Below, in pieces: positions 24,700-51,027 of a stretch of DNA of 64,000 nucleotides. The notes beneath the pieces were generated by a model. That model had not been told where the DNA came from, ran no database searches, and saw only the letters and a list, made by a program, of their open reading frames with translations. The stretch comes from Diplonema papillatum (lineage: Eukaryota; Euglenozoa; Diplonemea; Diplonemida; Diplonemidae), in contig JAPJBO010000762.1 in the NCBI GenBank assembly GCA_030068145.1, positions 46,555 to 110,554 on the forward strand, read 5' to 3'. A program made the position numbers and the translations under genes. The number at the start of each line of letters is the position of its first letter. The stretch's first letter is position 1.

Positions 24700-24822
24700 G
24701 CATCTGGGGTGCCCGGCTACATTGGACGAGCACACTTTTCCACAAAACCTCCCAGAAATTCCCAAAACTTCGTTCTCTTTCACGCTTTTTCACGTTTTTT
24801 CGTCGTCTTGTTGCGTTAGTGG
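24700..24822 (-). repeat. R repeat, part beyond the LINE 3' end, including the 19-bp target duplication
   Basis: CACGCTTTTTCACG..TTTTTCG, then CGTCTTGTTGCGTTAGTGG (24804-24822), matches the uninterrupted R copy at 33841-33882. The last 19 bp recur at 32446-32464 on the other side of the LINE. R is a dispersed repeat of unknown nature. Confidence 0.8.
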
Positions 24823-24986
24823 TATGGTCCTTTGACAGAGTGAGCCGATGCCTCTCATCTCACCTTTAAAACACGGCTGAGTCGCGCATGCTCTTGACAG
24901 ACGCTAACGTCCGACATTTCGCACGCGCGTCGCAGTCGTTGGGTGGTATTGACAAGGGGTTTCATCGGACACTCGGATGAGCTTCG

Positions 24987-27900
24987 TTACTTCACTGCCG
25001 CAGGTTCCCCCCTGCCCTGGGAGGTCCGCTTGGCTGCCTTCGGGTTGCGTTTCCGCGTTGGTGTTGTTGCTTCGCTTTTGGACTCCTTCTTCGACTTCGC
25101 ACGGTCCCAACGTCCTGGTCTGCCCTTGGTGCACGTCTTGCGCTCAGTCTGCGCAGTTCGTCTCTCCTGCTTGACCTCGTGCTTCCATCGAGCCTGCTTG
25201 CGCTCCCATCCCGACGGGTAGTGCGTCTGCGGTCGAAAACTGCCATTCAGTGTTGCAGCTTTGCGGAGCCCAGCCTGCGGTATGGCTCGCACCTTGTCGC
25301 CGGCCTTCTTCGCCGTCTGCTCTCGTGCGGCGGCTTCGTAGGCGCGCATCACGGCTTCAAACGCCTGCTGGCTCGCCATCTGTGGCCTCTTGTTGAGTCC
25401 GGCCATGTTTCCGCCTCCGAGAGACGTCAGGACGTTGACTTGCATCTCAAGCGCCGGGTGAATCGGCGTCTGCACGATACTCGTCAGCCGTCGCATCGCG
25501 CTCTTCATCGCGTACGATTTCGCGGTCGCCGAGTCCCGATACTCGGCTGTCGCTCGTCTCTGGACTTCATCCATCGCACGATTCGATAGAGCATCGGCGT
25601 CGATATTCTGCTCGCGCGGCACGTGCTCCAACCTGATGTCGATGCCTTTCTGCCGCAGTTCCGCCACCTCTGCCTGCGCCCTCGTCTTGTACGGTCGCAG
25701 AGCTTCGGAACAGCGCGCGTTTCCTGTCATCTGGTCAACGACAAGTCCGCTGTCCCCCCGAACAACCAGCTCTCCGCTCAGCCCTGGCTGGTCTTGGAGT
25801 CGGTGCAGTGCCTTGATCAGAGCCGTGTACTCCGCGACGTTGTTTGTCGCTCGCTCTTCGATCGGGGCACAAATCTCCCATTGTTTCTTCCCCGCGAGGT
25901 AGTATACGGCTCCTGCACCCGAAACGGCCCCACGCGTCCCGTTGTTCCGCGAGCCGCCGTCGAAGAAGACTGCTGTCAGCGGTTCGGGCAGTTCGTCCCT
26001 CGCCAGCCACTGTTTCTCTCTTTCTTCCGTGTTGCGTTTCTCTCGACGCCGAGTTTTGAGCGGCGTCAGCGTCAGGCCGCTAAAAAGCTCGAAGTCAATT
26101 GCGAGTTCAAAGAACGTCGCAGAGGCGTCGCCTCCTTGCTCCGCCCATCGCTTCGAGGAGCTCCATTTTGCCATCGCTACGAGCATCTCTTGCGAGTCGG
26201 GCCACGCTGTGGTGCTTGGCCGGGCTCCCTGCACATCGATGGGGTACACAGCAGTCGGTGGTTTCGGGCACCATCCCCACGGGTAGGTGTCGACAGAAAA
26301 CTCCTTTCTCCGACAATCCTTCTCAACTAATCCTTCCACCTTCTGTCGGTCGAGCAGAATGCGCGCACACATTAGCTGAATCGACCCTGCCATGTCCGCC
26401 GCTTGGTCGTGTTGCGCCTGTTTCGGCACGACGCCACAGAGAGCGAGACATTTCGGCATGTTCGGAAGACTGGCGACGAGGTGCGGGTACTCATTCCTGA
26501 TTGCTGTCCACCTCGTGCAGTCCCACCACATGTGGTGCTCGTCTTCCGGTACCCCCGCGTCGCAGTACTTGCAGACATCGTGCCCAAGCCGCTTTCCCGT
26601 CAAAACAGCGTTAGTGATGACTGCGCGCACCAGCCCTTGCTGGTATCCGGTCAGCCCTCCTTCCGTCAACAATCGTCGTGTCGCCGGACCGTCGATGCCG
26701 TGGATAATCCCCTCGAATTGTCCTCGCACGATCTTCGCATATCTGCTGGTGCGGACGGCCTCCCTCACCGCGTGCTGAAACTCGTCTCTCGCAACTGCCG
26801 CCCGCCTCTTTGCGCCCCTGTCTTCTGCGTCGGTGTCGCAGAAGAGGTTCCATTCCTCCGGTTGCGCCGGGTCTCGTAGACGTCCAAGCTCAGTCCACGT
26901 CCAGCCTACCTCTTCGACAGCCTCCTGGAACAGGGCTACCGGCCCCTTCTTCTTCGCGTTGATTTCTCCGCGCTCCTCTCTTTCGCGCCTTATTGCTCGT
27001 ACCTCCTCTGCCAATCGCCTGAGTCGTGGTCGTCTGCCTAATTGCTGCCCGAGCGTGAGCAGCCGCCGATGCAAAACGACAGAAGCCGGGTCCAGCCGGT
27101 GTCCGCGGCACAACACATTCAGCACTATTGCGCCGTTCCGGCGTGGGCTTCCGGACCAGATCCCCGCCATTGTTGCTCTCATCAAAGCTTGAACGTACTT
27201 CTTAGGTGGCTGCCACACGGCGGTTCCATACAGCGCTTTGGTCGTTGCTGCAGCGGCCACGTATCGCTCCCTTTCTTCCATCGGTACGGGGAGGTGTCGA
27301 GCCCGGCGGGCGATGGCTTGTGCCTTTTCGTGTCGCCCCTTTATGCGCTTGCTCGGCTTCGGCGATCCTTGACTTACCGAAAGCATCGTCCCCAACACGT
27401 CGAAAGCCTGCTGTCTCTCTATCGTCTTCCCTTGCACTTTCACCGCCCTCTCACGGCTTTCACACGTTGTGTACCAGTAGGACTTGGCGGCTCCGACTCC
27501 CAAGTCTGCCGCATTCGCGAATCGTGTTGTTGTCTGTGTGGCCGCTTTGAACTGTTTCTTGTCGCTCGTCATGGCCTGGGTGTCGTCCAGGAAGGCCAAT
27601 GCACGTACAACTTCTTCCTCGCTTCCGAGTACCTCTACCGCTCGGATCCATACTGCAACAAGCGCATTCAGCAGCAAGACACTCAAGGGACACCCCTGCA
27701 AAATGCCGTTTGCTGCGTTGAAGGCTTCCCCTATTCCGCCCGCGGTTTTAAAGTGTCTCCTGATGGCAGAGTATACTCCTCTTAGCGCTCTCAGGACCCC
27801 TTTGTCGATTCCCATGTACTCCACCAGTCTGAACATTATGTCGTGAGGGAGGCGATCGAAGCACTTCTCGTAGTCTACGGACAGCCCATACAAAGGCCGT

Positions 27901-30545
27901 CCGCACTCGATTGCATGCTCGATCCGCAAGGCTACTTCGAACATGACGTCGTCCGCCCCTCTCAGAGGCACCGCCCCGCGTACTCCATCGGGTATCCATT
28001 GGCAGACCCACTCGCCCAGCATCCGAAGCCGCGTCGCCGCCCAGAGTCGGTAGACAGCACTTGTCACCGAGATTGGGCGCAAGTTCATCGGTCCCGTCTC
28101 TCCCTCATTCTTTGGTATGAGAGTTATCAACGCCGTCAGAAGTGTCCGAGGCCAACGGCCAGTCTCTTCGACTACCCTAAACAATTGCGCGAACCGCTCA
28201 ATCGCTTCATCTGGCAGCGCCGCCAATTCGTGGACTCGCCAGCCTTCTGCCCCCGGTGCCGTTTCCTTGCCCAGCTTGGTAAGAGTTTTCAAGAGATCTC
28301 CCTTCGTTATCGGCGCAAGTGCAACCGGTTCTGTCCGTTTGATAGATGCCTCAAACTGCTCCTTGAAGTCATCCCATCGCGGCGCCGAGTTCCGGAAGTG
28401 TCTCTGAAAAACTCCCCCCCACGCGTTTGGCCCACGTAGGATCCTGTCCATCTCTTCCGGGTTCCATGTAACATTCCCATCCTCGTCTTTGATGAAATTC
28501 ACCTGTTTCCTGTCTTCCTGCTTCAGCCATGAGAAAATCCGCCCGGGTCTCGTCTTAACCGCTAGCTGCATGCGGTCTCGCCATTCTCGTACGCGCGCGT
28601 CTCTCACCTTCTCGGCGAGTTTACCCTGACATCCTATCAGGCCTTCCATCATGTGCATGAGGTCCGCCCCTACAGGTGGGCTTGGTCTCCCCCATACTTC
28701 CTTGTACGGCCCTTCAGCCATAAGGCGTGTTCCTATCCTTTTTGCTTTCTCCCATCGTCGCTTTCTCATCCGATCGGTTTGCATGCTGGCCGGTCCGTTC
28801 TCCCCGTCGGCGGCAATGGCCTGCAGTTGCCTCAGGAGACGTGAGGTTGAGCGTTCTTCTACGCTGGCCGCCACTCCGGTTCGTCTCCCCTGCGGTGCTG
28901 CGGTTGGTCGACTTTGGATCTTCGTTTCTCTCGTCCGGCCTGTAAACTTCTTCTCCAACTTCTCGGACCTTCTCGCCAGATACTCCTCCGCAGGTCCCGA
29001 CGCCAGTCTCCACGTCTCCTCCACCGCCTTCCTGGCCAAGGCCCGCGCAAGCTTATCTCTCGTCTTTGCCAGCGTCTCCTCGGCGAGCGATCTCTCATCT
29101 TCCTCGCTCAGGTTTGGCATTCTTCTAGGAAAAGCCGCCGGCCCCACCATTGTTCTTTGCCGGTCCTGGAACCTTTCCAGATTCATTCGGACGACAATCG
29201 CGTGGTGCGTTGGTATCGGCTTGACCTCCACGACCTCTACGCTTTCGACTGCTTGCATGGCAGCCTCGTTGGCTAAAACGAGGTCTATCCGCGTTCCTCC
29301 CTCTGCCTGCCAGCATGTTTTTGCTGGCGACGTCCCGTTTCGCATGGCGACATGGTGAGCCACGTCGGTCCACTGCCCAATCGAAGTCGCGGCTCGCAGG
29401 GTCCGCGATGTTTCCACTGTCGTGTTGAAGTCGCCTAGGATAAGGGTGGGGACGCTGCCGAGAGCAGAAGCGGCTTCGAACACCCTCTCGAACAAGCTCT
29501 CTCTCGACTCCTGTTTGCCGGCATGCCCGTATACTGTCATCATGTGTAGCATGTTCCTTCCTCCTCCAATTGGTGTGGCCACGTGGTGCCATCTTCCTGT
29601 ATCCCACAACGTCCTTTCCAGCTCATGGTCTTTTCCAGGAATCCAAACCTTTCCTTCCCCCGCTCGGATATAAAACCCCACCCCGCCAGGTGCGGTCTGC
29701 GTCCCGCCTCTCGCCGCTTTGGTCGTCGGTTGTGGCTTCGCCGTGCACAGCCGTCCCCCCAATTCCTTTCGGACAAGTTGCTCATACACTTTTGCCGACG
29801 GTGCATCCAGCCGAAGTTCTTGCATCGCTATGAAGTCCGCGTCAAGCGTGGCGACGTCGAGGTAGTGCTTCCGGTAGGAAGTCACGTTTACCGTCGCGAC
29901 TGATATCCCCCTCGGCCGGGTCGTCGTTCGCCTTGATCTTTGTGAGGGCAGCGTCTGCGGCGGCTGCCGTGGCTGCGAGGTCGACGATCTTTGTGAGGGC
30001 AGCGTCTGCGGCGGCTGCCGTGGCTGCGAGGTCGACTTCTCGTGGCACGGGTGCGGTTGTCGGTTTGGGGGCGGTGTTCTTCGCTGGGCGATTAACAGCC
30101 TCGCGAGGGGCACGGTATTGGTGTCTGCTTGTTCCAGCAACTGCAGGCTTTGTAAGGGGAGCTGGAGTCGGTCGTAGTGTAACGGTTGGTAGGTTATCAC
30201 TAGCGTCCGGTCCGCCCCATCTGACCTCCACCGCTTTATCACTCCACGATGGGCGGCATTCACCACCCAGATGTTGCACTTTAGCACCTGTGCTGCTGCA
30301 TTCAAAGTCAGCTCGTCTCCGTATGTTCGGTCAGTTTCCATTCTCTGCAGGTACTGCCCCATCTCTTCTCCTCCCAAGTAGTCATAGTACCTTGCGGTAT
30401 TCGCTTCGATGTCTCGGACCACTCGCTCCCTCAATGCGCCTGCGTCGATTCCGCCGTAGCTGTCCGCAATTGCCGTGAATTGGCAATTCCCGTCTCCCGG
30501 AACTTGGATGTACCTTGCGCACATACCGCGCGCCGTTCGTTCCAT
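24987..30545 (-). CDS. LINE ORF2: OTU protease-AP endonuclease-RT-zinc finger-RNase H
   Basis: 1852 residues from ATG at 30545. Residues about 10-130 form an OTU cysteine protease (PGDGNCQF with Asp and Cys; LHYD with the catalytic His). A linker holds a 17-residue tandem duplication. An APE-type endonuclease spans about 210-455 (TVNVTS, LGDFNTT, RIDLVLAN, HHAIVVRM). RT spans about 755-1010 (LIPKNEG, VDYEKCFDRLP, NGILQGCPLS, and catalytic AFLDD near 986). A CKYC...HHMWWDC zinc motif lies near 1323. RNase H spans about 1520-1655 (FFDGGSRNNG, AEYTAL, GDSGLVVDQM, ADALSN), followed by a basic tail. It nicks the target and copies the RNA there. OTU-bearing LINEs are known in algae (Dualen/RandI-type, from memory); I do not see a second, restriction-like endonuclease with certainty. 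No breaks. Confidence 0.93.
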   Translation of the reverse strand: MERTARGMCARYIQVPGDGNCQFTAIADSYGGIDAGALRERVVRDIEANTARYYDYLGGEEMGQYLQRMETDRTYGDELTLNAAAQVLKCNIWVVNAAHRGVIKRWRSDGADRTLVITYQPLHYDRLQLPLQSLQLLEQADTNTVPLARLLIAQRRTPPPNRQPHPCHEKSTSQPRQPPQTLPSQRSSTSQPRQPPQTLPSQRSRRTTTRPRGISVATVNVTSYRKHYLDVATLDADFIAMQELRLDAPSAKVYEQLVRKELGGRLCTAKPQPTTKAARGGTQTAPGGVGFYIRAGEGKVWIPGKDHELERTLWDTGRWHHVATPIGGGRNMLHMMTVYGHAGKQESRESLFERVFEAASALGSVPTLILGDFNTTVETSRTLRAATSIGQWTDVAHHVAMRNGTSPAKTCWQAEGGTRIDLVLANEAAMQAVESVEVVEVKPIPTHHAIVVRMNLERFQDRQRTMVGPAAFPRRMPNLSEEDERSLAEETLAKTRDKLARALARKAVEETWRLASGPAEEYLARRSEKLEKKFTGRTRETKIQSRPTAAPQGRRTGVAASVEERSTSRLLRQLQAIAADGENGPASMQTDRMRKRRWEKAKRIGTRLMAEGPYKEVWGRPSPPVGADLMHMMEGLIGCQGKLAEKVRDARVREWRDRMQLAVKTRPGRIFSWLKQEDRKQVNFIKDEDGNVTWNPEEMDRILRGPNAWGGVFQRHFRNSAPRWDDFKEQFEASIKRTEPVALAPITKGDLLKTLTKLGKETAPGAEGWRVHELAALPDEAIERFAQLFRVVEETGRWPRTLLTALITLIPKNEGETGPMNLRPISVTSAVYRLWAATRLRMLGEWVCQWIPDGVRGAVPLRGADDVMFEVALRIEHAIECGRPLYGLSVDYEKCFDRLPHDIMFRLVEYMGIDKGVLRALRGVYSAIRRHFKTAGGIGEAFNAANGILQGCPLSVLLLNALVAVWIRAVEVLGSEEEVVRALAFLDDTQAMTSDKKQFKAATQTTTRFANAADLGVGAAKSYWYTTCESRERAVKVQGKTIERQQAFDVLGTMLSVSQGSPKPSKRIKGRHEKAQAIARRARHLPVPMEERERYVAAAATTKALYGTAVWQPPKKYVQALMRATMAGIWSGSPRRNGAIVLNVLCRGHRLDPASVVLHRRLLTLGQQLGRRPRLRRLAEEVRAIRREREERGEINAKKKGPVALFQEAVEEVGWTWTELGRLRDPAQPEEWNLFCDTDAEDRGAKRRAAVARDEFQHAVREAVRTSRYAKIVRGQFEGIIHGIDGPATRRLLTEGGLTGYQQGLVRAVITNAVLTGKRLGHDVCKYCDAGVPEDEHHMWWDCTRWTAIRNEYPHLVASLPNMPKCLALCGVVPKQAQHDQAADMAGSIQLMCARILLDRQKVEGLVEKDCRRKEFSVDTYPWGWCPKPPTAVYPIDVQGARPSTTAWPDSQEMLVAMAKWSSSKRWAEQGGDASATFFELAIDFELFSGLTLTPLKTRRREKRNTEEREKQWLARDELPEPLTAVFFDGGSRNNGTRGAVSGAGAVYYLAGKKQWEICAPIEERATNNVAEYTALIKALHRLQDQPGLSGELVVRGDSGLVVDQMTGNARCSEALRPYKTRAQAEVAELRQKGIDIRLEHVPREQNIDADALSNRAMDEVQRRATAEYRDSATAKSYAMKSAMRRLTSIVQTPIHPALEMQVNVLTSLGGGNMAGLNKRPQMASQQAFEAVMRAYEAAAREQTAKKAGDKVRAIPQAGLRKAATLNGSFRPQTHYPSGWERKQARWKHEVKQERRTAQTERKTCTKGRPGRWDRAKSKKESKSEATTPTRKRNPKAAKRTSQGRGEPAAVK

Positions 30546-30617
30546 CCACTCATAGTCGGTGTCGTCGTCATCTGCCGTCCCTGTTACGTCCCCTCCTCCG
30601 ACCAGGTTGGCCTCGCT

Positions 30618-32405
30618 TCATTTCGCGGTCGACGATACAAAACCGGCCAGCGTCGACTGCCTGTCCGATTTCTTTGTCATGGATGCAGCGGAGTTCTGCA
30701 TCTTCGCCGGTGGCTTTGCCTCGTTTCGTTCCTGAGACGCCGATTCGGTGCCGGACCTCGCCCTTTTCTTCGCCCCCGTCTTCTGGCCCCCCGGCTTGGT
30801 GCCTTTCGTCTTCTTGGTCTTCCCTTCCTCGCGGTCCGCACTCGGCTGTCGCCGCGGTGACGGCGACTTCTGTGCTCCGGCCTGCTTTGTCTGCACTTCC
30901 GCCAGTCGCTTGGTGAGGTCCTCGATCTGGCGAAGAGCTTCTTTCAGCTGTGCGCGCAGCTCCTCCATCTCTGTTGCTTCTGGTGTGCCGGCTGGATTAG
31001 GGCCTGCTGGCCCAGTGGCCGATTCAATGTTGAAGTCCTTCCCGCCTTTACCGCCCTTCATAGGACTGCCTTTCTTTCCGCCACTCAAACCCTTCGCTGC
31101 ACTCCCTCCCTCGGGCAGTTGCTTCCCAGCCTCGCGCCATCGTTCGATTCCCTTTCTCTTTCCGTAGCAGCTCAAAAACTCCGCCCAGGTGTATCTTTCC
31201 TGCTCCCGTACTGAGCCGACCTCTGCAGGGTCTCGTCTCTTCTCCGGTGCCGCTGCTTGCACCCACCTCTGTTCGGTCTCGGAGATCGGCCGGGCTGAGG
31301 AAACCTCGATGCGTGTTCCCCCTCCGGTAACACCGAAGACCCATGAGGGCGGTTCCGTTCCCCTCACCACTGCGAGCACCCTTCCTCTCTTCGGAATGAC
31401 TTTGATTGCAGTCACCCCCTCCCACCCTGCCGTTCTCAGAAAGGCTTCAGCCTGGGCTGCCGTGGTCCGTTTTGCAAATCCGTAGACGTCCCACGGCATC
31501 CCGTTCCTTTTTGGCACGGCCTTCTCTCCCACCGCGGTCCGGACGCGTTCTTCGGCCTCCGGTGCCACCCGAAGCCCGAGCCCGCGCCTGTTGGCCGCCA
31601 GCCTCCGTGCCTGCAGGCGCCTTGCTAACTCCCTTGCCTCAGGGAGGGTCGTGTTGGCAGCCAGCCAGACGATCGGCCCTGCGTCCTTCTTATCGCGCAC
31701 GAAAACGCCGCGATGACCCGATGCAGCCTCGAGCGTCTTCGCCTGCTCGCCGGTAACACGCAAAAGTGCGCCGATAGATCGCGCCGGGTCCTCGGCTCTA
31801 CCGCGTGTCTCAACACCGGTGATCCCGATGGCTCGGCCGTCAACGCCCGCCTCCCCTGCGAATCGCTGAAGGTAAGCTCGCAGGTTGCTAGTCGCCTCTT
31901 CCCACTCTCCCGGCGTTGTGTACTGCCGGGGAACATGCACAGACAGTCGATGGGTGTCATCCCACTCACGCGCGTCTGGCATTGGCGCTTCCCTCATCGT
32001 CAATTTCGAACTGACTGGCTTTTCTCCCAGCTGGAAGAGGGTCCCCGTCGTCGTCTCAACCCGGGTTCCTCGTCTGATTACGACCGGGCTTGTGTGCCCC
32101 TTCAGGCCTGCCAGCTCTGGCACCGCGCCTAGCACCACCATCGCGCATGCTCCTTTTCGCACGCCTCCACCGTAGGCTTTCTTCGTCTCCGCACGACTCG
32201 CAATGGCAACGCCTGCGATACAACCTTGCAGCGCCTGCACGTCGACGACCGGCACGTCCCAGTCCTCACTTCGCAGCTCGGCATGCTGCTTGCTCTTCTT
32301 CGCTGGCACCCACTGCCATGGGGCCTCTGCCTTTGTCTGCGTCGGCCGCATTGTCTCATCAGAGTCAACGCGTTGCCCAGGACCACCGCTCGGAGGTGCA
32401 GACAT
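30618..32405 (-). CDS. LINE ORF1 (RNA-binding/gag-like) with C-terminal PIP-box-like motif
   Basis: 595 residues from ATG at 32405, 40 nt from the element's 5' end. Residues about 230-400 have alternating strand/helix segments with basic patches (WDVYGFAKR..., VIPKRGRVLAVVRG) that could be RRM-like, as in many LINE ORF1 proteins. A coiled coil follows near 485-520 (EELRAQLKEALRQIEDLTKR), then a very basic tail. The last 15 residues contain RQSTLAGFV, fitting the PCNA-interaction pattern Q-x-x-L-x-x-F. The likely role is binding LINE RNA and forming the RNP. ORF2 starts 72 nt after its stop. Confidence 0.8.
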   Translation of the reverse strand: MSAPPSGGPGQRVDSDETMRPTQTKAEAPWQWVPAKKSKQHAELRSEDWDVPVVDVQALQGCIAGVAIASRAETKKAYGGGVRKGACAMVVLGAVPELAGLKGHTSPVVIRRGTRVETTTGTLFQLGEKPVSSKLTMREAPMPDAREWDDTHRLSVHVPRQYTTPGEWEEATSNLRAYLQRFAGEAGVDGRAIGITGVETRGRAEDPARSIGALLRVTGEQAKTLEAASGHRGVFVRDKKDAGPIVWLAANTTLPEARELARRLQARRLAANRRGLGLRVAPEAEERVRTAVGEKAVPKRNGMPWDVYGFAKRTTAAQAEAFLRTAGWEGVTAIKVIPKRGRVLAVVRGTEPPSWVFGVTGGGTRIEVSSARPISETEQRWVQAAAPEKRRDPAEVGSVREQERYTWAEFLSCYGKRKGIERWREAGKQLPEGGSAAKGLSGGKKGSPMKGGKGGKDFNIESATGPAGPNPAGTPEATEMEELRAQLKEALRQIEDLTKRLAEVQTKQAGAQKSPSPRRQPSADREEGKTKKTKGTKPGGQKTGAKKRARSGTESASQERNEAKPPAKMQNSAASMTKKSDRQSTLAGFVSSTAK

Positions 32406-32445
32406 GTTGATAATCGTTTGTGTGATTTTCTTGTTTCCCAGTCCC

Positions 32446-32500
32446 CGTCTTGTTGCGTTAGTGGGGAGTCATTTGCATGCAAATGAGTACCACACTATGA
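32446..32500 (-). repeat. R repeat copy a: 19-bp target duplication plus hairpin at LINE 5' side
   Basis: The target duplication at 32446-32464 is followed by the 33-nt hairpin 32461-32493: basal GTGG/CCAC and an 8-bp arm TCATTTGC/GCAAATGA (perfect palindrome ATTTGCATGCAAAT). R ends at CCACACTAT as in the other copies. Confidence 0.85.
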
Positions 32501-33768: not shown

Positions 33769-33916
33769 TGGAAAAGTATTCAAAAAACTTCCAAAATCTT
33801 CTCAGAATTTCCCAAGACTTCCCAGAATTTCGGTCCCTTCCACGCTTTTTCACGCTTTTTCGTCGTCTTGTTGCGTTAGTGGGGAGTCATTTGCAAGCAA
33901 ATGAGTACCACACTAT
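33769..33916 (-). repeat. R repeat copy b (empty LINE target site)
   Basis: Uninterrupted version of the LINE target. CACGCTTTTTCACGCTTTTT, CGTCGTCTTGTTGCG, TTAGTGG, then directly the hairpin 33879-33911 and CACTAT. The 19-bp target appears once (33864-33882). Confidence 0.88.
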
Positions 33917-33928
33917 GCCAGCTTTTCG

Positions 33929-34411
33929 CTACGTGACGCCAGAAGGGTCACTTTTTCCGCGCTTTCGGCGCGGCGCAACTCTAGTCGGCTGCAACTGTTG
34001 TTGGCAGTTGCTCACGATCTCATAATCCGAAAAGGAATCGGAGTCTTCGCTTTCTCGTTTGCGCCGATAGGCACGCCGCGATGCGGAGGACGCGAGTAGC
34101 CGGGAATAGCCGGCGGGAGGGCGCGATCGTTGTGTGACCCGTGGAGGGTCGGAACCAGAATCAGTAAAAGGGCCCGAGTCAGTGCCTGCCATCGAAGAGG
34201 GCCGGGCGGGGCCGAGTGGGCGCGGTGTGTTCGGGCCGGCGAGGCCAGTGCCGTCGTCGCCGAGATCGGCGCGTCGTCGTCGTGTTGCGCGCAGCGCGGC
34301 TGCGGGAGAGGCCGTGGGGGTGCATGGCGCGGGTCGCTTCCTGCCTGCTGGCGGGGGGGCGCGCTTCGGGGGCGACTTCGTCGTCCGCCTCCTCCGGCCA
34401 CGGCTGGTAGG
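33929..34411 (-). pseudogene. 3' part of a basic Arg/Ser-rich frame split by YR element 2
   Basis: On the minus strand a frame runs from the element boundary through ...SDPPRVTQRSRPPAGYSR and RRKRESEDSDSFSDYEIV to a stop at 33929. The opposite flank (39155-39523) is Gly/Arg-rich on the same strand. They may be the two halves of one interrupted gene. No family recognised. Confidence 0.35.
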
Positions 34412-34904
34412 AGTTTCTGCTCTTCGTATTGTCTGACGAGAACTGCCTAGAAGAGCTTCTGCTCTTCGTATTGTCTGACGAGAACTGCTTAGGAAAAAGG
34501 GAGAAGTAAGAACACGTCTTTGTAACTGATAGCACTAGCGCAAGGGAATGTTGAGTGACTGCCTTAACCCGGGGAAACGAGCTTGGGCGAGGTCACCGGG
34601 GGGTTAGGGAGGGTGGGAAAACTTGAATTTCTCTTTGAACCAACCACACCCTGAAGGCTGTGTTAAGTTCTCTAATCGACTTTTCGTGGTGCATCAACTC
34701 CCTCAGTGAAACTGTGAGAGTTTCTGCTCTTCGTATTGTCTGACGAGAACTGCCTAGAAGAGCTTCTGCTCTTCGTATTGTCTGACGAGAACTGCTTAGG
34801 AAAAAGGGAGAAGTAAGAACACGTCTTTGTAACTGATAGCACTAGCGCAAGGGAATGTTGAGTGACTGCCTTAACCCGGGGAAACGAGCTTGGGCGAGGT
34901 CACC
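34412..34904 (-). repeat. B2-A2-B1 terminal block of YR element 2
   Basis: Two 186-bp B copies, each with the internal 42-bp duplication, flank one A copy of about 102 bp. The A2/B1 junction reads ACTGTGAG/AGTTTCTG, presumably the joined ends of the circular intermediate. Confidence 0.92.
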
Positions 34905-37890
34905 TTCCATCCACCACAACGCCAGTGAGAAACTGCCTCACCGCAAGTACAATTGAATCGAGCGCATCAGCGCCAATCATGGTCAGCGGTACGCGTGACG
35001 GCAAGTCCGCAGGGTTGCCCTCACTCCTGACCCATCGTACAGAAACAGCGCAGTTCAAGGAACGCACGCGTTCCAGTCCTTTAACTACCGCCTCGTTCAA
35101 GACGGCACTTTTTAAACAGGACCCCTTACGGGCCACTCCTTTCACAGTGGTATTATCAACCACAATGTCCACTCTCCCACCTCTAATCGAGGGCGGCAGA
35201 GCCAAGACAACTAACTTGAAGGCAATAGCCTCCAGCTCGTTTATGTGCAACGAGCTCTCTGCAGAGTTCCATGACCCACCCAACACGGTCACTTCCATTG
35301 TGCGCGAGTCAACAAGGACACCCCCCCAGCCTTTCTTACTCGCGTCCACGAAGGCCGTGATACGTGGGGACTGTTCGAGAGTGGGAACGGCCCTCGGCTT
35401 CAGCACCGAGTCAATCCACTCTTGGAGCGACAAACGAACACACGGAGAAACTTCAACTCTATCAGAGGGCAGCCGAGCCCCTCGGTTCAACGAGTTGGTT
35501 ATGCGTCGAAAGAACTTCAACGCAAACCAAAACGAGCCCGGAAAAATGCCGGCGACCGCAGAGGCATGCAATAAACGGCCGCCGAGAGTCTCGAGCTCGC
35601 ACGCCAGCACGGTGGGCGACGACTTCAGCGTGTAGCGCGCCTCCATCAGCTTTCTTCGCAACTTCCGTGAGACAGCCACACGATGAGCAACGTGGTCCCA
35701 ATCGACCCCGATGAACTCATACCGTGTGGCGGCAGTCTGCGAATCGGACGGCTTCCACGTCAGGCCGCACTCCTCCGCGGTCAGGTCCAGCCTCCGAGTC
35801 GCGAGCCGCACAGCCGGCTTCTTGCCCGCATACCGGATGTTGTCGATCCAAATGTCGACGATGACATCCCGTTCCGCAAACTCCGGACGCACGAAGTCCT
35901 CATGTCCGCCGGCCACCGCTGCCAAGGTGTGCATTAACTCCGGTGCACACGAGTGTCCCATGGGAAGCCGCAGAAGTTCCCACCAACCACCATCGGAGTC
36001 AGCGAACCTGAAGAGATGACGCGACTCCGGCGGGATCTCAATGGCGTAAAAACCCGTCTTGAAATCCCGGGTTGAGCCACACTCCTCGCGGCTCGCCCCG
36101 AGGTAGCCGGAAACGTGTCCGAGGGGCACAGATGCTTCGTAACCCGCCTCTTGAGCGGCTCGGTTACCGTCCACCGTCCACAAGATGAAGCGCTGACGCA
36201 GCGCCCCTTCCTTCTCCTCCAGCACTGTGAAAGGGACTGAAGCGAACGGACCGGGACCGGTTGAACTGCGGGCAATCCCGTTTTCCGCGAGCAAACATGC
36301 ATGGTCGGGACGAAGGGTCGAGGGGGACCCGATTGCCGTCTCCGTCTCGACACGGGGAAAGAACGTTGAACGCCACGTATCGTCAAAACGTCGGAGGGTT
36401 GCCTCGTTCATCCGCGCACGAAGCTTCGCGACAGACATCGGCTTGATCGGCGCGACATGCAATGGCGAAGCGCGCTCCTCCTTGCTTCGCGGCAGCCGCG
36501 TCGAACCGCCTCGTCGGGTGACGGAGTGGAATTGACCACTGCGGAGGTATCCCGTCACAAGTGCTTCGTCACCTTGCCGGTCTCGAGTGCCCTGGCAAGG
36601 TCCACGTCGCCCCCGGCGTACCGGAGTGTGGTCCTCGACAGCGTTCCGGGTCCGCCCTCCTCCTCGTGCTTCGTCAGCCGGTCGATGAGGTGCGGCGACA
36701 GCTTGCCGCTGGTCAGCAACGGCAAGAGGTGCTTCACCGCTCCGCGTTTGATGGAGTGCGCGGTGTACCCCTGCATCTGCGTCGACTGGCCCCACAGAGC
36801 GTCCAGTGCCGACGTTGTCAACGCCGACAGCGGAGCGAAGGGTGCACACTTCGCGTACAGAACGGCGATTTCCGCCGTCAACGGTCCCTGGATGACCGCA
36901 AACCGCGACGCCTTGAACGGATCCTGCGTCCGCCCCTTCGGCGTCTGGAACCAGTCCACGATGACCTCCTTCTGCGTCACCAGGAGGAACTGCACTGACG
37001 AAAGATTCGCCGCCTCCGCCCAACGCGAAGCCGTCTTCCACGCGACCAGAACCGCCAGACGAACGGACGACTGCTGCTGCCTGGCCCAAGACACAAGCTT
37101 CCGCCTCTCGATTGGCGTCGCCTGGTTCTCCGGGATAGCCGCCCCACCCCCGCGCAAGGCCTTGGCCAAGACCCGCAGGGGGTGGTTCTCGAACCCCATT
37201 GCCCCAAACGAGGCCGACAGGGCCTTGGTGTAGGCAAGCTGTCCCTGGGGCCGGACACCCGTTGCCGCCACGAACAGGCATGCCGAGTCCGCGTTCATCC
37301 CAAGTCCACGTTCTGTCGTCCATGCCTGCAGCCGCCGCCACAGGCTTCGACGCTCCTGCGTGGTCGACCGGGCCCACATGTCCGCCACGACCGCCGACAT
37401 CTTCGTACGAGCCATCTCCACGGTACTCGCACCCTCCTGTGTCCGACCGGTACGGCTCGTGCCTCCAGACGAAATGAGGCGGTAGACTGCCATGCCTATC
37501 TCCGATGTCGGCATCCCTTCGGTTCCCGGCAACGGCGGCGCACAGGTTGGTCGCAGTGACGATGAGGTCGTTGACGGCCGTGAGGAGCTGCAAGCTCGAA
37601 CCCACATCATTGGCCGGGTCGGTGTTGGTGGCAGCATCGACGCCTCGGTTGTGCGTGCCAACGGGGGATGAAGATCTACTTGGTGTGTAGGCATGGGAAT
37701 CGGCGGGGAGACGAACTTTTGAACGGGTGGGGAGTGCGTCGGAAAGACATTCGACGGAGGGAGGAACTTCATTCGCACGGGAGGTGAGTGGGTCGACGCG
37801 ACGGTGGAACGAGGGAGGAACTTCATCCGCGCGAGCTGTTGTTGCATTGGAACTGGCTGTTGAAGCCTGGGCCGGGTGGGTGCCAGTCAT
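34900..37890 (-). CDS. Reverse transcriptase-RNase H, YR element 2
   Basis: 996 residues from ATG at 37890, overlapping the gag stop (ATGA). Codons 1-445 overlap the recombinase frame. RT is about 560-740 with LPMGHSCAPE and catalytic WIDN (Asp at 683). RNase H is about 843-985 (Asp 849 in FVDAS; ELEA; VDNTT; GNPADLPSR). The stop TGA lies in the last bases of B1. It differs from the element 3 protein at one residue seen (Cys versus Ser in DHACLL/DHASLL). It makes element cDNA. Confidence 0.92.
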   Translation of the reverse strand: MTGTHPAQASTASSNATTARADEVPPSFHRRVDPLTSRANEVPPSVECLSDALPTRSKVRLPADSHAYTPSRSSSPVGTHNRGVDAATNTDPANDVGSSLQLLTAVNDLIVTATNLCAAVAGNRRDADIGDRHGSLPPHFVWRHEPYRSDTGGCEYRGDGSYEDVGGRGGHVGPVDHAGASKPVAAAAGMDDRTWTWDERGLGMPVRGGNGCPAPGTACLHQGPVGLVWGNGVREPPPAGLGQGLARGWGGYPGEPGDANREAEACVLGQAAAVVRSSGGSGRVEDGFALGGGGESFVSAVPPGDAEGGHRGLVPDAEGADAGSVQGVAVCGHPGTVDGGNRRSVREVCTLRSAVGVDNVGTGRSVGPVDADAGVHRALHQTRSGEAPLAVADQRQAVAAPHRPADEARGGGRTRNAVEDHTPVRRGRRGPCQGTRDRQGDEALVTGYLRSGQFHSVTRRGGSTRLPRSKEERASPLHVAPIKPMSVAKLRARMNEATLRRFDDTWRSTFFPRVETETAIGSPSTLRPDHACLLAENGIARSSTGPGPFASVPFTVLEEKEGALRQRFILWTVDGNRAAQEAGYEASVPLGHVSGYLGASREECGSTRDFKTGFYAIEIPPESRHLFRFADSDGGWWELLRLPMGHSCAPELMHTLAAVAGGHEDFVRPEFAERDVIVDIWIDNIRYAGKKPAVRLATRRLDLTAEECGLTWKPSDSQTAATRYEFIGVDWDHVAHRVAVSRKLRRKLMEARYTLKSSPTVLACELETLGGRLLHASAVAGIFPGSFWFALKFFRRITNSLNRGARLPSDRVEVSPCVRLSLQEWIDSVLKPRAVPTLEQSPRITAFVDASKKGWGGVLVDSRTMEVTVLGGSWNSAESSLHINELEAIAFKLVVLALPPSIRGGRVDIVVDNTTVKGVARKGSCLKSAVLNEAVVKGLERVRSLNCAVSVRWVRSEGNPADLPSRVPLTMIGADALDSIVLAVRQFLTGVVVDGR
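36555..37847 (-). CDS. Tyrosine recombinase, YR element 2
   Basis: 430 residues from ATG at 37847, 43 nt inside the RT frame and fully nested in it. Catalytic residues: Arg275 (TASRW), Lys in TPKGR, His364 and Arg368 (AHSIKRG), His in LTKHEE, Tyr410 (TLRYAGG). The N-terminus has repeated RMKFLP segments. It integrates the element circle and probably recognises the A/B junction. It is identical to the element 3 copy as far as I can see. Confidence 0.92.
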   Translation of the reverse strand: MQQQLARMKFLPRSTVASTHSPPVRMKFLPPSNVFPTHSPPVQKFVSPPIPMPTHQVDLHPPLARTTEASMLPPTPTRPMMWVRACSSSRPSTTSSSLRPTCAPPLPGTEGMPTSEIGMAVYRLISSGGTSRTGRTQEGASTVEMARTKMSAVVADMWARSTTQERRSLWRRLQAWTTERGLGMNADSACLFVAATGVRPQGQLAYTKALSASFGAMGFENHPLRVLAKALRGGGAAIPENQATPIERRKLVSWARQQQSSVRLAVLVAWKTASRWAEAANLSSVQFLLVTQKEVIVDWFQTPKGRTQDPFKASRFAVIQGPLTAEIAVLYAKCAPFAPLSALTTSALDALWGQSTQMQGYTAHSIKRGAVKHLLPLLTSGKLSPHLIDRLTKHEEEGGPGTLSRTTLRYAGGDVDLARALETGKVTKHL

Positions 37891-39050
37891 TTCCCGCCGG
37901 CCTTTCCGTTTCCCGGCTGCCTCGGCCTGAAGGCCGGCTTCTTCGTCGGACCCCTCTCCTTCTTGCCGCGCAGAACCGCGGCGGCCTTGTCCAACGGGTC
38001 CTCAGCCTGAGACCCGATTTGTCGGAGGAGGTCCCGACGGCTCATCCCCTCCTCCACGTACAGCTTCTGAAGCCGGAGTTGTTTCAGAAGCTCATTTCCC
38101 AGCCTCAGCTGGTCGGGGCTGCGCGTCCATCCCTCGGTGGCCGACATGGCCAACATCCAGCATCGGAGCATGCCGAACGTGCTGTCGAGCTGCTCGCCAC
38201 CCGGAAGGTGAGCCCTCCCACACACGTAAGCCGATTCGACGTCCCGGATCAAACCCCACGGGTCCAGGAGCAGGGGCTCCCGCCACTCTCGGACGTCCTT
38301 GGCGTCCTTCGCGAACACCCTGGGGGCAACGTCTTCTTCCTCTTCCTGCCGCCCGTCAGACTCCATTGGCTGCGGCGCTGGCTGCGCGGTCGCTGACACT
38401 GACGCTACCGCGGGCGACGGCTGGTGCGAAATGCCCATCAGCTGCGTCTGCATCTGCTGCAGCACCTGCATCATGTGCGCTTGTTGCTGTTGTTGCGCCC
38501 GCATTTCCCGCTGCTGCGCCTGCATCTGCTCCTGCTGCTGCATGACCATCCGCTGCAGCTGGTCCTGCATCGATGCGCCCGCGGATGCCGTCACCGGAGG
38601 CGCCACCGACGCAGACGGGACCGCTGCAGAGGGAACAGACGCAGAAGAAACCGGCTGCCCCGCTCCGCTACCCTCGACCGGGGCCTGGATAAGACTCGCC
38701 AGTGAAGGCGGGGGTACATCAAATTTTCCGACAATCTTCTTAACAGCTAGTGACACGCGAGCTTCGTCCTCCTCATACACGAGCATTAGGATCGCCAAGA
38801 CCCGCTGCAGATCCAAACCCGCCACCTCAAGTATCGTGGCGCCGATCGCCTCGGCGAGTACCGCGCGGGCCCTGTCTGTGACGGCCTCTTCGCATGTGCC
38901 GAATAACGTGGAGCAGAAAGACTCCATTTCACGCACGCGGAACTTCCTTTTGGAAGGTGGCTCATAGGCAAAGGATCGAGTCCAGGCCTCGCGGAGCACA
39001 GAAGGGAACCTGTAGTCCCACCTGTCGGCATTCGGCAGCGGCGAAGACAT
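37887..39050 (-). CDS. Gag-like protein, YR element 2
   Basis: 387 residues from ATG at 39050, which directly abuts repeat A1 (the frame is open upstream but only with a GTG). Gln/Met-rich central coiled coil (QQQEQMQAQQREMRAQQQQQ), then a helical half ending NGKAGGK. The stop TGA overlaps the RT ATG. Presumed particle protein, by position and homology with elements 1 and 3. No zinc knuckle. Confidence 0.75.
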   Translation of the reverse strand: MSSPLPNADRWDYRFPSVLREAWTRSFAYEPPSKRKFRVREMESFCSTLFGTCEEAVTDRARAVLAEAIGATILEVAGLDLQRVLAILMLVYEEDEARVSLAVKKIVGKFDVPPPSLASLIQAPVEGSGAGQPVSSASVPSAAVPSASVAPPVTASAGASMQDQLQRMVMQQQEQMQAQQREMRAQQQQQAHMMQVLQQMQTQLMGISHQPSPAVASVSATAQPAPQPMESDGRQEEEEDVAPRVFAKDAKDVREWREPLLLDPWGLIRDVESAYVCGRAHLPGGEQLDSTFGMLRCWMLAMSATEGWTRSPDQLRLGNELLKQLRLQKLYVEEGMSRRDLLRQIGSQAEDPLDKAAAVLRGKKERGPTKKPAFRPRQPGNGKAGGK

Positions 39051-39154
39051 GGAAAAACTTGAATTTCTCTTTGAACCAACCACACCCTGAAGGCTGTGTT
39101 AAGTTCTCTAATCGACTTTTCGTGGTGCATCAACTCCCTCAGTGAAACTGTGAG

Positions 39155-39523
39155 TGTCCCGGGCGGGGACGGCGCGCGCCGCTTCCGGCCTGTGAGGCCG
39201 TCGCTCTCGCCTAGGCTGCGACCGCCACCGCCGCGATCCCCGCCGCGTCCGCCGCCGCGACCGCCGCCGCGACCGCCGCCGCGTGCGCGGCCGCGACCAG
39301 TGCCGCGGCCGCCGCCACCGTCTCCGTCACTGTCGTCTCCGCCGCCTCGGCCGCCGCGGCCGCGGCCACGGCCGCGGCAGCTGCCGCCACGACCACCGCC
39401 ACCCCCGTCGCCACCGCTGCTGTCGCGGCCAGCAACACCCCTGTGATGCCCCCGTCCGCAGCACGCGTCGGCGTTCGGGCAGGTCCCGCACCGCGTCAGC
39501 CGGTGCGCCCGACAACACTGCAC
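39155..39523 (-). pseudogene. Gly/Arg-rich frame with Cys/His cluster, interrupted by YR element 2
   Basis: On the minus strand the frame reads CCRAHRLTRCGTCPNADACC, then long RGG-type repeats (GGGRGGGRGGGRGG), and ends at the A1 boundary. No in-frame ATG is present (a TGA lies just upstream), so it is an exon or a truncated gene. The Cys/His cluster could bind zinc. Whether it joins 33929-34411 is unproven. Confidence 0.35.
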
Positions 39524-39529
39524 TTTTTC

Positions 39530-39600
39530 ACTTGCGCTTTTTCGTCATCTTGTTGCGTTAGTGGGGAGTCATTTGCAAGCAAATGAGTACCACACTATAT
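39530..39600 (-). repeat. R repeat copy c (empty LINE target site)
   Basis: CGCTTTTTCGTCATCTTGTT, GCGTTAGTGG, the hairpin 39561-39593, then CACTAT. The LINE target is uninterrupted. Confidence 0.88.
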
Positions 39601-42089: not shown

Positions 42090-43525
42090 CCTACCCCCCC
42101 CCGTGTTTAAGATCGCGTTTTTCCGTGTTTAAGATCGCCCCCCAAAAAAACCGATCTTATACACGGGGGGGGACGATCTTAAACACGGGGGGGGGACAAA
42201 AACACCCCAAAAAATTTTTTTTCCGCTGCGCGGGGCCTTGAACCCGTGTGTCCGTGGCTTAGAGGACCGAAACACGGCGCAGACGGGACCAGTGCGGAGC
42301 ACATACCCATTCCAAGCACGTTCTTGCAATCCCCCCACCCCCCAGTGCTGATGCTTAGGCCCCAAAACTCGGCATCGTTGTCAGCCGGACGGTAAGTGGG
42401 TGTTTTGGGGTGTCTCCCAGAGGGGTAAACGTTGCTTACGTTTGTTTGGGTTTTCTTTTGTGAATGTCAGGGTGCAAAGACGAGCCTGCCCACAGAGCAC
42501 TTTTGAAGGCAGAATCTATGTCTGCATCTGTGATTGCCAAGTATGAGTCCGCGAGCCACTTGCACACCTCGTCACGGGTTGGCGCACTGTTTTCTGCAAC
42601 AAGCTGTTGCGAGGACCAGTCTATCCACTTGGAACGAAGAAGTCGTCGCACCTTCAGATTGCAGGCTCTGGTCGCCAACATTCAAGTGACCTGACGTGTT
42701 CGGAGGTATAATGAACACCAGCCAGCCCCGCGATCTCGCCTCCTTCACGACAGGAATGCTGTAGTGCGACTTGTACCCATCCACCATTACGAGAAGCCCA
42801 TACTTCCCTGAGGGGAAGCTGGGTAATGTACAGATGTACTCGAGCATTACTTCGTAGTCGCATCGGATTGCCGAAAGGGAATGCGTGAACATTCCGCAAC
42901 CCGGATGCAGAGATCTGAAGTGGTGACACATTGACGATCCTGTTGACCATGTCCACAGGCCCCGGATGATGCAGTCGTCTCTTTTTGAAGGAAGGGTTGA
43001 CCCTTGAAACGCTTCACGCGGGGACAGGGTTAACTATCCTGGAAAGCTGCACTTTCTTCGTGTAGTAGGGTGTCTTGTGGATGTGCATGGAAAAAACAGG
43101 GGAGATCTCATTCTCTTGCATCGGGCCGTACCGTTAACCGCAATAGGTCTCCTAGGCTAAAAGCCTCTGGCCGACAGAACAATGTAGGTAAGGGAAGTCG
43201 GCAAACTGGATCCGTAACTTCCCCCGCGGCAGCGTTTAAAAAAGACAAGGTTTTGACCCTGCATGGTATCTCCCAACTTGGGGGGTCCAAGAGATATTTT
43301 TCCCGCCAGAACCTCCCAGAGAAAAAGTACCCCAAAAAAAAAATTCCCGCTGCGCGTGGCCAAAAAACCCCCCCACAGTAAAAATGCCCCAAAAAAAAAA
43401 CTTTCCCGCTGCGCGGGACCCCACCCCACTCCCCCCCCGTGTATAAGATCGCCCTCATTTCTCAAAAAAACCGATCTTATACACGGGGGGGGAGGGCGCG
43501 ATCTTAAACACGGGGGGGGGGTAGG
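42090..43525 (-). mobile_element. Tc1/mariner-pogo element, 1436 bp, TA-flanked, degenerate
   Basis: Both ends read CCTACCCCCCCCCC, then GTGTTTAAGATCGCG (inverted), flanked by TA at 42088-42089 and 43526-43527. Second inner copies of GTGTATAAGATCG lie in inverted orientation at each end. It contains only the C-terminal half of a frameshifted transposase, so it is non-autonomous. To its right lies a YR-retroelement relic. Confidence 0.85.
42436..42931 (-). pseudogene. pogo-like transposase, C-terminal half with frameshift
   Basis: The frame 42572-42931 (minus) has LLVMVDGYKSHYSIPVV (second catalytic Asp) and IIPPNTSGHLNVGDQSL (third Asp region), typical of pogo DDE enzymes. The continuation VRRLLRSKWIDWSSQQL lies in another frame from about 42655. 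The first catalytic Asp and the DNA-binding domain are missing. Confidence 0.72.
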
Positions 43526-43900: not shown

Positions 43901-44173
43901 GGGAGCAACGGAGACTAGCGACTGAAAGAAGGTGGATGTAAGGAAACGAAGCCGAAAAATTAAAAAGAGAATAAACAAACAAAAACAAAGAAAATAAACA
44001 TCCCATGAATATTGAGCAACTTTTTAGAAGAAAAGAAGGAACCAAATGCACACTTTTCGGACCATATGAACAGGTCGCCCCTGATAACGCTGAATATCGA
44101 ACCCCGAGCTCGCAAGCATGGTGCACATCCGAGCCGGCTACTTTCGAAAATCGTGGTTGTGATGGGCTGCTGC
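43901..44173. other. No gene recognised
   Basis: A-rich segment 43950-44010 and short frames only. Confidence 0.45.
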
Positions 44174-44226
44174 ATAGTGTGGTGATCATCAGCATGCCGA
44201 TGACTCCCCACTCATGCTACAAGAGC
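44174..44226 (+). repeat. R repeat copy d, diverged, with 19-bp target duplication
   Basis: Hairpin 44179-44211 keeps GTGG/CCAC and the arm lengths but reads TCATCAGC/GCCGATGA, with a T-A to C-G compensatory pair. The target CCACTCATGCTACAAGAGC (44208-44226) recurs with small changes at 44405-44422 after the LINE fragment. Confidence 0.75.
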
Positions 44227-44404
44227 GGTGAACTAACGAAGCTCACTCGCATGTCCGATGTAACCCCTCGTCAATACCACCCAGCAGCTATGACGCGCAT
44301 TGCAATGCGATACTGAGCGCTAGCTTCCGGCTAGGGCAAGCATGGCGCAGCCGTATCGGAAAGGTGAGACGCGAGGCGTCGGCACACTCTGTTGAAGGAC
44401 CATA
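44227..44404 (+). mobile_element. 5'-truncated LINE copy (last 178 bp) at the same R position
   Basis: AACGAAGCTCACTCGCATGT...TCAATACCACCCAGC and the end GTTGAAGGACCATA match the 3' end of the 7.6-kb LINE (24823-25000, inverted). It is flanked by an imperfect 18-19 bp duplication of the R target, so it is an independent, older insertion of the same LINE family. Confidence 0.85.
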
Positions 44405-48617: not shown

Positions 48618-51027
48618 CCAATATAAAAAAGAGGTTCGAGTTTCGCGCTGTCAGGAATCGCCAATCGAGAGCCTACCGGGGAGGCACACCGGAGCTCGCC
48701 GGCACCTAAAACAGGCAACGCAAGCGAGCCAGGCCTTCACCACCGAACAAGGCGCCATTCAAACGACTGTGACACGTAGTCATGCATCACCCCAGTGTCT
48801 ACGGCGACTGCGAACCCCCCCAAAGATGCAAGCAAGCAATCGCGTATCAAACCAACAGTGGAACCGGTGCGAATACGGCCGCCGCCTAACCACTCGCCGA
48901 TCTGCAAGCAATACAACGAGCCAGATTTTGGCTCCTTTTACATTGCTTCACCACCTGGTCAGGCGATAACGTCGGGGATGCGTAAAGCGGCCCTGTGCTT
49001 GCCTATGCGTGCCCCGAAGGGGAAGGAATAAGATGAGAAGGAAGGACAGACTGGAAGTTACGGTTTGACAGGTAGTGACAGGATCGGCAAGGAGAGCAGA
49101 AACGGTTCCACCAGAGGCGGTTGCGGTCGAAGACGGCAACCCGAGCGAGGAGTAAGGTTGATACCTAAATTGGAGCTATGATGGCCATGCTGAAGGCAGA
49201 ATTGCAGGAGGAACTGATGCTTGGCCGAGGATGCTTGGCCGAGGATAAGATGGCTATGGGACAGAAGACAGAGAGTCCTCCTTCACGCCGGGTCCTGGTC
49301 CTGGTGGGTTCCCCGAAACTCCCCGATACCCAGCCCGTTCAGAACACCACGGTCGGTCAACATGGGTTCTGAAAACTCAACGTCGCCCCATGGGACCTCA
49401 TAGTTCGACAGAGTCGATCCAGAATGAGGTGACCGGCCGCGGCGAGGTTCGTCCGTGTCCTTCCTACTCGGCGTGATGGAAACAACATCAATACGCAAAG
49501 GGCCGGCACGCACAAACAAAACGAAGCGCCTACATTTTTAGTACTAACAATCTTGCGGGTCGCCCTTCAATGTATTGTGCACGTAGGCAGCGTGTTTTGG
49601 TGGTTGATCAGAATTCCCCACCTGAATATACACAGGTAAATACAAGTGGGAAAACGATCACCCGGCACGCACAAACAAACCGAGACCCTGGTTGCTAGAC
49701 TGTATACTTGTTGTCAGCGAGACATGAGGTTTGCGGTTTTGCTTGTGTGCTGCCTGTGTAATTGAAATCTGGACGCCAGGCTATTCGCTATCAAAGCACT
49801 CATCAAAATGCTGGTCGTAACGAACTTCTTGTCTTTGTGCCTTTTTGTCTGGTTGTACAGCACGTTTGAGACTGCGGGGTGATCTTGTGCAGCCGTCTGA
49901 GATCATCCTTTCACGTCCCTGGCTTTGCCTGTTCACCTTCGAGAACACACGTTCCTGCAGGGCAGTATGCAAGATGCGAATACCAACGGCAGGAAGCTTT
50001 GCTTGAGGAAGCAGCTATCGACCAGCAGACCTCTGGTGGTTGCTTTGCACTGGTCCACAATGACATACTCCTCTACTGTAGGGTGGCAGCATCCCACCTT
50101 GAACAGGCGGAAGAGGCGTTCGAGAAGCTGTCCTGATACCTGGGCCCCGCAGACTAGAAATGTGCTGAGCTCTTCCTTTGAAAAAAATTATGGAATTGTT
50201 TCAAACCAGCCACGAATGCAAGCCAAAATGGCAATCAGAACATGACCCGTGCCGCAAAATCCACACCGAGTCCCTCGTTACACCGCGATTGTAGTCACGC
50301 CCTTGCACGCCTACCGTCTTTTTTTTTGGTCTTCGTCGCGTCTTTTTTGGTCTCGGTCTTTCTTGAAGGGCAGGTGCCATTTAGGGGGAACCTTATCGAT
50401 CCCCCCTCTTTTTGCTTTCTCACTCCGTTTCTCGCGTTATTTGTTGTTTGGAACATCGTCGTGCTGATGTGGCAAAGAGGTTGGAGAGGGATGGAAGGAA
50501 GGCTAGCTGGGCGATGTGTCACCCCCTCGTGGTCGTGGTGCGTGATTGTTTCTAATTCAAGTTAAGAACTCAGTAGCGTTGCAGATCAAAACTCTCGCAA
50601 GGAAGATATGTGACACCCTTCCTTCAGTGTTGCAGCATCGGTCTCCTAGGAAGACTGCTGTCGTCAACGAATGACAAACCGCATAAGGGAGGTCACATTT
50701 TTACCTTACCGGGAAAATTTCCCACTGGAACCAGGGGGGGGGGGTACGGCTACCACCTTTTATAATTTTGAAGGCGCGGGCAATTATTTCCCCCCAGCCT
50801 GTACGTACACCCAGGTTCGATTCCCTTCCAAGCTCTTTTCCGCAGGCAAAACTACAGCATCGTTCTCCGAAAGTTTGATCAAAAATCCTCAAAAATCTTT
50901 TTTAAAAGATGGGGGGGTTCGGGGGGCCCCCCGCCCAAACGGTACGGTACTAACAACCTAACAGGGCTTGTCTGGGCTTATACGTCTTGTAGAGTACCCG
51001 GCGGAGAAACCCCCATCAATGAGAAGG
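48618..51027. other. About 2.4 kb without recognisable gene
   Basis: Open frames up to about 110 codons on both strands, none with motifs. G-rich runs occur at 50736-50748 and 50909-50927. The last 20 bp before YR element 3 (CCCCATCAATGAGAAGG) resemble one partial unit of the 41-bp satellite. Confidence 0.45.

Follow-up and report, generated by a model that had tools for sequence, protein, structure and literature searches.

A LINE of Diplonema papillatum with a probable target in the 3′ tail of a dispersed retroposon

Introduction

Target-specific LINEs are known that insert into rRNA, tRNA or snRNA genes, telomeric repeats, microsatellites or transposons. In the Tx1 clade, to which Keno also belongs, Tx1L inserts into the transposon Tx1D, and Kibi and Koshi are found in microsatellites; the target of R1 is rDNA. 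Dualen/RandI of Chlamydomonas combines an APE, an RNase H and a cysteine protease with the reverse transcriptase (RT), and has a second, restriction-like endonuclease. Passages of PMC4640811 place transposons and microsatellites among LINE targets, name the Tx1 and R1 clades as target-specific groups of the APE type, and give U2 as the target of Keno. For SART1, a section of PMC7265360 gives the telomeric repeat as target and describes the RNA as thought to pair with the nicked target. L1 elements that bear an aRNH occur in plants and oomycetes according to passages of PMC5348765, where structure 3aly is named as an aRNH.

The LINE described here, LINE A, resembles Tx1-clade LINEs in having an APE, an RT and a fixed target, and some targets of that clade are transposons or microsatellites. 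Unlike Tx1-clade LINEs, LINE A has an OTU domain and an RNase H, and it inserts into the 3′ tail of a retroposon. SART1/TRAS and R1, of the R1 clade, are likewise sequence-specific LINEs of the APE type. However, their targets are telomeric repeats and rDNA, versus a retroposon tail for LINE A, and the domain contents of R1 and SART1 differ from LINE A in the OTU domain. The likeness to aRNH-bearing L1 elements lies in the RT, which is closest to LINE-1 ORF2, and in the RNase H, which matches 3aly among others, its type being judged by similarity only. In contrast to LINE A, which has an OTU domain and targets the tail of the repeat R, the passages of PMC5348765 on these L1 elements do not contain the term “OTU domain” and describe no strict target choice.

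LINEs that target transposons or microsatellites are thus already known, and what is new is a nested, target-switching group. The combination of OTU, APE and RNase H domains, a retroposon-tail target, a related (CA)n family and a decamer-phased target was not met in a literature search whose partial coverage makes it weak evidence of absence.

Results and Discussion

LINE A and its domains

The window (the whole stretch of 64,000 nucleotides that was analysed) is part of contig C762; the assembly has 2,910 contigs and totals 271 Mb. LINE A starts with GGGACTGGG at position 32445 and ends in ...GGACCATA at 24823. Its features are as follows.

24823..32445, minus strand: LINE A, full length, 7,623 bp; the junctions recur in other genomic copies
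30618..32405, minus strand: ORF1, 595 aa, intact (ORF translation)
24987..30545, minus strand: ORF2, 1852 aa, intact (ORF translation)
30249..30500, minus strand: OTU-like cysteine protease domain, ORF2 residues 16-99 (Pfam PF02338, 9.2e-10)
29241..29852, minus strand: APE-type endonuclease domain, ORF2 residues 232-435 (Pfam PF03372, Exo_endo_phos, 7.1e-9)
27390..28118, minus strand: reverse transcriptase, ORF2 residues 810-1052 (Pfam PF00078, RVT_1, 8.6e-15)
25575..25973, minus strand: RNase H, ORF2 residues 1525-1657 (Pfam PF13456/PF00075)

The order of the ORF2 domains found by Pfam is OTU, APE, RT and RNase H, with the RNase H downstream of the RT. LINE A is therefore predicted by Pfam to carry both an RT and an endonuclease of its own (RVT_1 and Exo_endo_phos in ORF2). 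Among solved structures, LINE-1 ORF2 chains are closest to the RT (~78 bits, versus 48 bits for R2, in a phmmer search of the PDB), and the PDB matches of the RNase H include 3u3g, 3hst, 3aly and 2ehg. Pfam, which can miss short motifs, gave no match to a restriction-like endonuclease in ORF2. ORF1 matched no Pfam family above the curated cut-off, and a search of the PDB gave nothing credible. Viral contigs yielded no relative of the RT region: four stretches fitted the pattern and none was confirmed.

The insertion in the window

LINE A interrupts a copy of R and is bounded on each side by a perfect 19-bp copy of CCACTAACGCAACAAGACG (given in the sense of R). The sites in the window that bear on the insertion are listed below.

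24804..24822, minus strand: 19-bp target-site duplication on the LINE 3′ side, CGTCTTGTTGCGTTAGTGG, 0 mismatches
32446..32464, minus strand: 19-bp target-site duplication on the LINE 5′ side, CGTCTTGTTGCGTTAGTGG, 0 mismatches
32446..32499, minus strand: 5′ part of the R copy hit by LINE A (blastn to the R copy of locus L004, 100% over 54 bp)
33862..34415, minus strand: R copy with an empty LINE site at 33864-33882, 98.2% to R
39544..39598, minus strand: short R copy, 55 bp, with an empty LINE site, 96.4% to R
44172..44224, plus strand: 5′ part of a diverged R copy, with the first duplication copy, 83% to R
44227..44404, plus strand: 5′-truncated LINE copy, 178 bp of the 3′ end, at the same R position, ~75% to the LINE 3′ end

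The last 21 bases of the interrupted R are also present at 24822-24802 (blastn to the L004 copy, 100% over 21 bp). An earlier note on this DNA had claimed a perfect 19-bp duplication around the LINE, and empty sites in the R copies at 33.9 and 39.6 kb. Both claims are borne out: the duplications at 24804-24822 and 32446-32464 have no mismatch, and the 19-mer CGTCTTGTTGCGTTAGTGG, with 0 mismatches at 33864-33882 and 1 at 39546-39564, continues in both places directly into GGAGTCATTTGCAAGCAAATGAG, which is the empty site. It should be noted that the empty sites are paralogous R copies. The same note had a second, truncated LINE with its own duplication at 44227-44404; position and duplication stand, but the two duplications, CCACTCATGCTACAAGAGC and, from 44405, CCACTCATGCAACAAAGCC, are imperfect.

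The R copy at 33862..34415 resumes at 39154-39520 (92.5% to R) behind a nested retroelement. This nested element, at 34416-39153, has a second copy at 51025-55773, and the two are 99.9% identical across 4,749 bp.

R, a probable retroposon with a target of its own

R copies have a common 3′ end and are truncated at the 5′ side, with lengths from ~22 bases to 1.4 kb. The full length is 1,395 bp: in 10 of the 18 loci compared the match to the L004 copy has an identical start base, and L072, a rearranged form, is an eleventh locus with this start base. A Cys/His-rich stretch of R resembles the C-terminus of ORF2 in LINE family B (37% across 78 residues, with an E-value of 5e-9 in a two-sequence database), so R is probably a non-autonomous retroposon derived from a related LINE. 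The autonomous partner of R was not found.

By a strict rule, duplications of at least 7 bases flank R in 14 of 51 rows, which include LINE junctions and rows whose 5′ end is misplaced by indels; shuffled pairings gave a mean of 1.0 and a maximum of 5. R had been described as a dispersed repeat. It is dispersed, but it is not an arbitrary repeat, being a 5′-truncating retroposon with short duplications of its own.

The 3′ flanks of R from loci L001-L108 and the window, 59 in number, were collapsed to 48 with distinct first 14 bases. Their lag-10 identity is 0.480 (n=48) versus 0.284 at +400 (n=38), and their lag-20 identity is 0.421 versus 0.295 at +400. The repeats are in fixed phase: 41 of 48 flanks have G at position 11 and 47 of 48 have it at position 1, where it may be the last base of R itself. 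R itself thus enters a target in this phase, namely degenerate decamers that follow the pattern GTGAwwwnnT.

The R 3′ end may be a structured RNA; nothing at R reached the gathering score in Rfam, and viral contigs held no exact R tail. Upstream of the LINE target is a hairpin, CATTTGC/GCAAATG (33862-33916), which in the copy at 44172-44224 reads CATCGGC/GCTGATG, with one pair changed on both sides.

LINE A junctions genome-wide

The 19-mer, which is the 3′ tail of R, has 777 occurrences in the genome. GACTCC followed by the first 16 tail bases has 1,007 exact sites, ~2 per million strand positions. Exact LINE 5′ ends number 14 in the 271-Mb genome, the one in the window included, and the upstream flanks of all 14 were read. 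Ten are directly in R at the target base (one of these, L050, in a diverged R). Three others (L048, L051 and L054) are in an R-type tail behind other sequence, which in L048 and L051 is the 3′ end of a LINE. The remaining one, L047, is off target in unrelated DNA; 7.6 kb away, at L020, an identical 19 bases, CCACTATTCAAGCTAGTCA, are found on the other side of the LINE. The 5′ junction is 19 bases from the tail start in 13 of the 14 and 20 bases in L050. Both sides were seen for five of the 14 elements (C762, C1076, C471, C501 and C367).

Exact LINE 3′ ends (the last 16 bases) number 425 genome-wide, in queries that terminated at the last base of the LINE and that copies with other 3′ ends escape. 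The exact 16-nt tail CCACTAACGCAACAAG is abutted by 168 of the 425. Chance cannot credibly account for these 168, because the 1,007 tail sites represent so small a share of strand positions. Among the first 100 of the 425 ends listed, 39 abut the exact tail. The first 20 of the 61 non-exact ends in this hundred comprise 9 with at most 3 mismatches in 16, 4 with 5-7 and 7 with at least 8. Extrapolated to all 425 ends, these shares would put about two thirds at 3 mismatches or fewer. In a best-match sample of 30 loci, which is biased to young copies, 23 of 32 3′ junctions abut exact CCACTAACGCAACAAG.

The sequence-specific targeting claimed from the window is thus upheld, as an R-type tail directly precedes 13 of the 14 exact 5′ ends. 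The earlier note had proposed to ask whether most other LINE copies are in unrelated flanks. For the 5′ ends this is not so, but the 3′ side is leaky, since 11 of the 20 non-exact junctions have at least 5 mismatches. The specificity of LINE A is therefore strong, though leaky and incomplete.

Occupancy of the target is another matter. That two of four R copies are hit is correct for the window but atypical of the genome: 52 distinct 19-mer sites in 46 loci gave four LINE junctions, from three insertions. These sites come from the first 100 of the 777 occurrences and for the most part follow the order of the contigs, and 56 occurrences were reduced to 52 by counting sites with identical 120-base surroundings once.

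In the part of the genome common to the LINE 3′-end and R-tail lists, an exact GACTCC-tail is found at most 8 kb upstream on the same strand for only 9 of 50 LINE 3′ ends (controls 4, 2 and 0). Thus many LINE copies are without an intact R upstream, which old age, tandem insertion and 5′ deletions could explain. L029 and L031 have the tail downstream, with neither R nor a duplication upstream, and L018 has R upstream and a different sequence downstream. L038 was considered as an off-target insertion and rejected, as its flank resembles diverged R.

What is recognised, and a proposed mechanism

In three loci a LINE is found directly or nearly directly behind the tail of a LINE that is less like the window copy. 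The identities to the window copy are 98.5% behind 84.6-92.4% in L049, 92-97% behind 84.4% in L051, and 93-95% behind 79.5% in L052. Provided that likeness to the window copy is a measure of age, a younger LINE entered the tail of an older one. From such insertions the upstream hairpin part of R would be dispensable and the downstream CCACTAACGCAACAAG sufficient. Recognition seems to rest on this downstream sequence rather than on the GACTCC of R. The target had been placed between CTCC and CCAC of R, but GACTCC seems not to be required, some insertions being behind the tail of another LINE. Among 16 junctions with at least 5 mismatches, 12 start with CCAC and 15 with CC; one of the 16, L022, could be a tail that carries an indel. 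The CCAC start is compatible both with reading of GTGG by the endonuclease and with pairing of a read-through RNA with a GTGG-3′ primer.

LINE A is very probably a target-specific non-LTR retrotransposon of the APE type, which nicks the R tail and inserts by target-primed reverse transcription. Its endonuclease would nick the strand 5′-CTTGTTGCGTTAGTGG^ in the 3′-terminal tail of R, and the freed GTGG-3′ end would prime reverse transcription from the LINE 3′ end (...GGACCATA). The 19-bp duplication would result from a second cut at a distance of 19 bp. The APE domain would do the choosing of the target, and CCAC would be needed by the endonuclease or for pairing of the read-through RNA with the GTGG primer. 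The RNA-target pairing of SART1, as described in the section of PMC7265360, is a possible parallel to this requirement.

R provides about a thousand dispersed landing sites for LINE A. As a landing pad, R is a simple example of a mobile element that makes a niche for another.

Related LINE families with different targets

Three LINEs that are ~75% identical to LINE A at the 5′ end (L056-L058) all lie in the same R tail. Ten others (L059-L068) have the same GGGACTGGG start, and all follow directly after (CA)n, which is interrupted in L067. Across the genome this (CA)n family, family B, has 23 exact 5′ ends, of which 20 follow CACACACA and L067 is among the other three; the one 3′ end that was read (L089) also runs into (CA)n. 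The family shows 36% identity to LINE A in the RNase H/C-terminal part. Since two related families have different targets, the R tail versus (CA)n, target choice appears to have changed within one group of related LINEs. With both families in one genome, many near-identical copies, and about a thousand naturally varying copies of the target, the bases that are read and the switching of specificity should be tractable to study.

A wider reading would join all of this into a three-level parasitic cascade. The 10-bp repeats would be the phased target of R, and the R 3′ tail the target of LINE A; LINE A transcripts would gain the R 3′ terminus and could also be moved by the R machinery, and the target of the group would have switched between the retroposon tail and (CA)n. 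Taken as a whole, this cascade is unlikely.

Independent insertions and alternative explanations

The truncated copies in R begin at LINE bases 7422, 7076, 7158, 6835 and 7203; they are therefore separate insertions. Private variants are common to both duplications of an element: AAGATG in L017/L044 (C501), AACATCACAAGAGC in L024 (C276) and CTCATGC in the 44-kb copy of the window. In the 30 best-match loci the LINE reaches the identical last base (...GGACCATA) and the 5′ ends vary, in a query that ended at this base and so favoured copies with that 3′ end. Off R, 16-bp duplications of non-R sequence that start with CCAC are found in L011 (with one mismatch) and L030. Varied 5′ truncation, ~19-bp duplications and a recurrent 3′ junction are hallmarks of target-primed reverse transcription. 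From the junctions read, the copies display a recurrent 3′ junction, a predominant target, ~19-bp duplications, 5′ truncation and independent insertions.

Two loci are exceptional. L009 has a 37-bp duplication that includes decamers, and L025, an unclear case, has a LINE and tail next to R inside decamer repeats. Both could be read to mean that insertion is specific but that part of the family was re-mobilised by the R machinery, a LINE in the R tail giving R-like transcript ends. However, both can also be explained as ordinary insertions in which the duplication is long or has mutated, and L029 and L031, with no R upstream, show no decamer duplication; such re-mobilisation is thus quite unlikely.

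Alternatively, CCACTAACGCAACAAGACG could be the 3′ end of the LINE itself and be common to the LINE and R, as in SINE/LINE pairs; the junctions would then be products of template jumping, from the RNA of the LINE to that of R. R and many LINE copies do have an identical 22-nt terminus, with decamer repeats of one kind behind it, and many LINE copies have the tail without an exact R upstream. At off-target sites, however, LINE 3′ ends (CCATA) continue into other sequence, which places the tail outside the element. The private variants common to both tails also speak against a shared end, as do the off-target L011, L030 and L047/L020, where 16-19-bp duplications start where the tail would. A shared tail is very improbable, and is largely refuted by the off-target insertions that lack it.

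A single entry of the LINE into R, with later spread of R-LINE units by duplication, would suit the evenly spaced LINE 3′ ends of two contigs (six, 117 bp apart, in C55; three, 167 bp apart, in C48), but it is extremely improbable and is refuted for the dispersed copies by their differing truncation points, R lengths and outer flanks. LTR-like terminal repeats were also rejected, since off-target copies carry other duplications. Specific insertion of LINE A into the R tail remains the preferred explanation.

Other features

The regularly spaced LINE 3′ ends at C55:317445-318045, which have the exact tail, and at C48:113650-113999 are probably tandem arrays. An Rfam scan of the window gave only one match that reached the gathering score, an LSU rRNA fragment at 42808-43170 (RF02543, 132.9 bits) in TE-rich surroundings; this fragment is of eukaryotic type and, like the LINEs, marks the genome as that of a eukaryote. 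A hAT-like transposase ORF (Dimer_Tnp_hAT) is present at 7458-10178, and a 41-bp tandem repeat of ~48 copies occupies 55769-57766.
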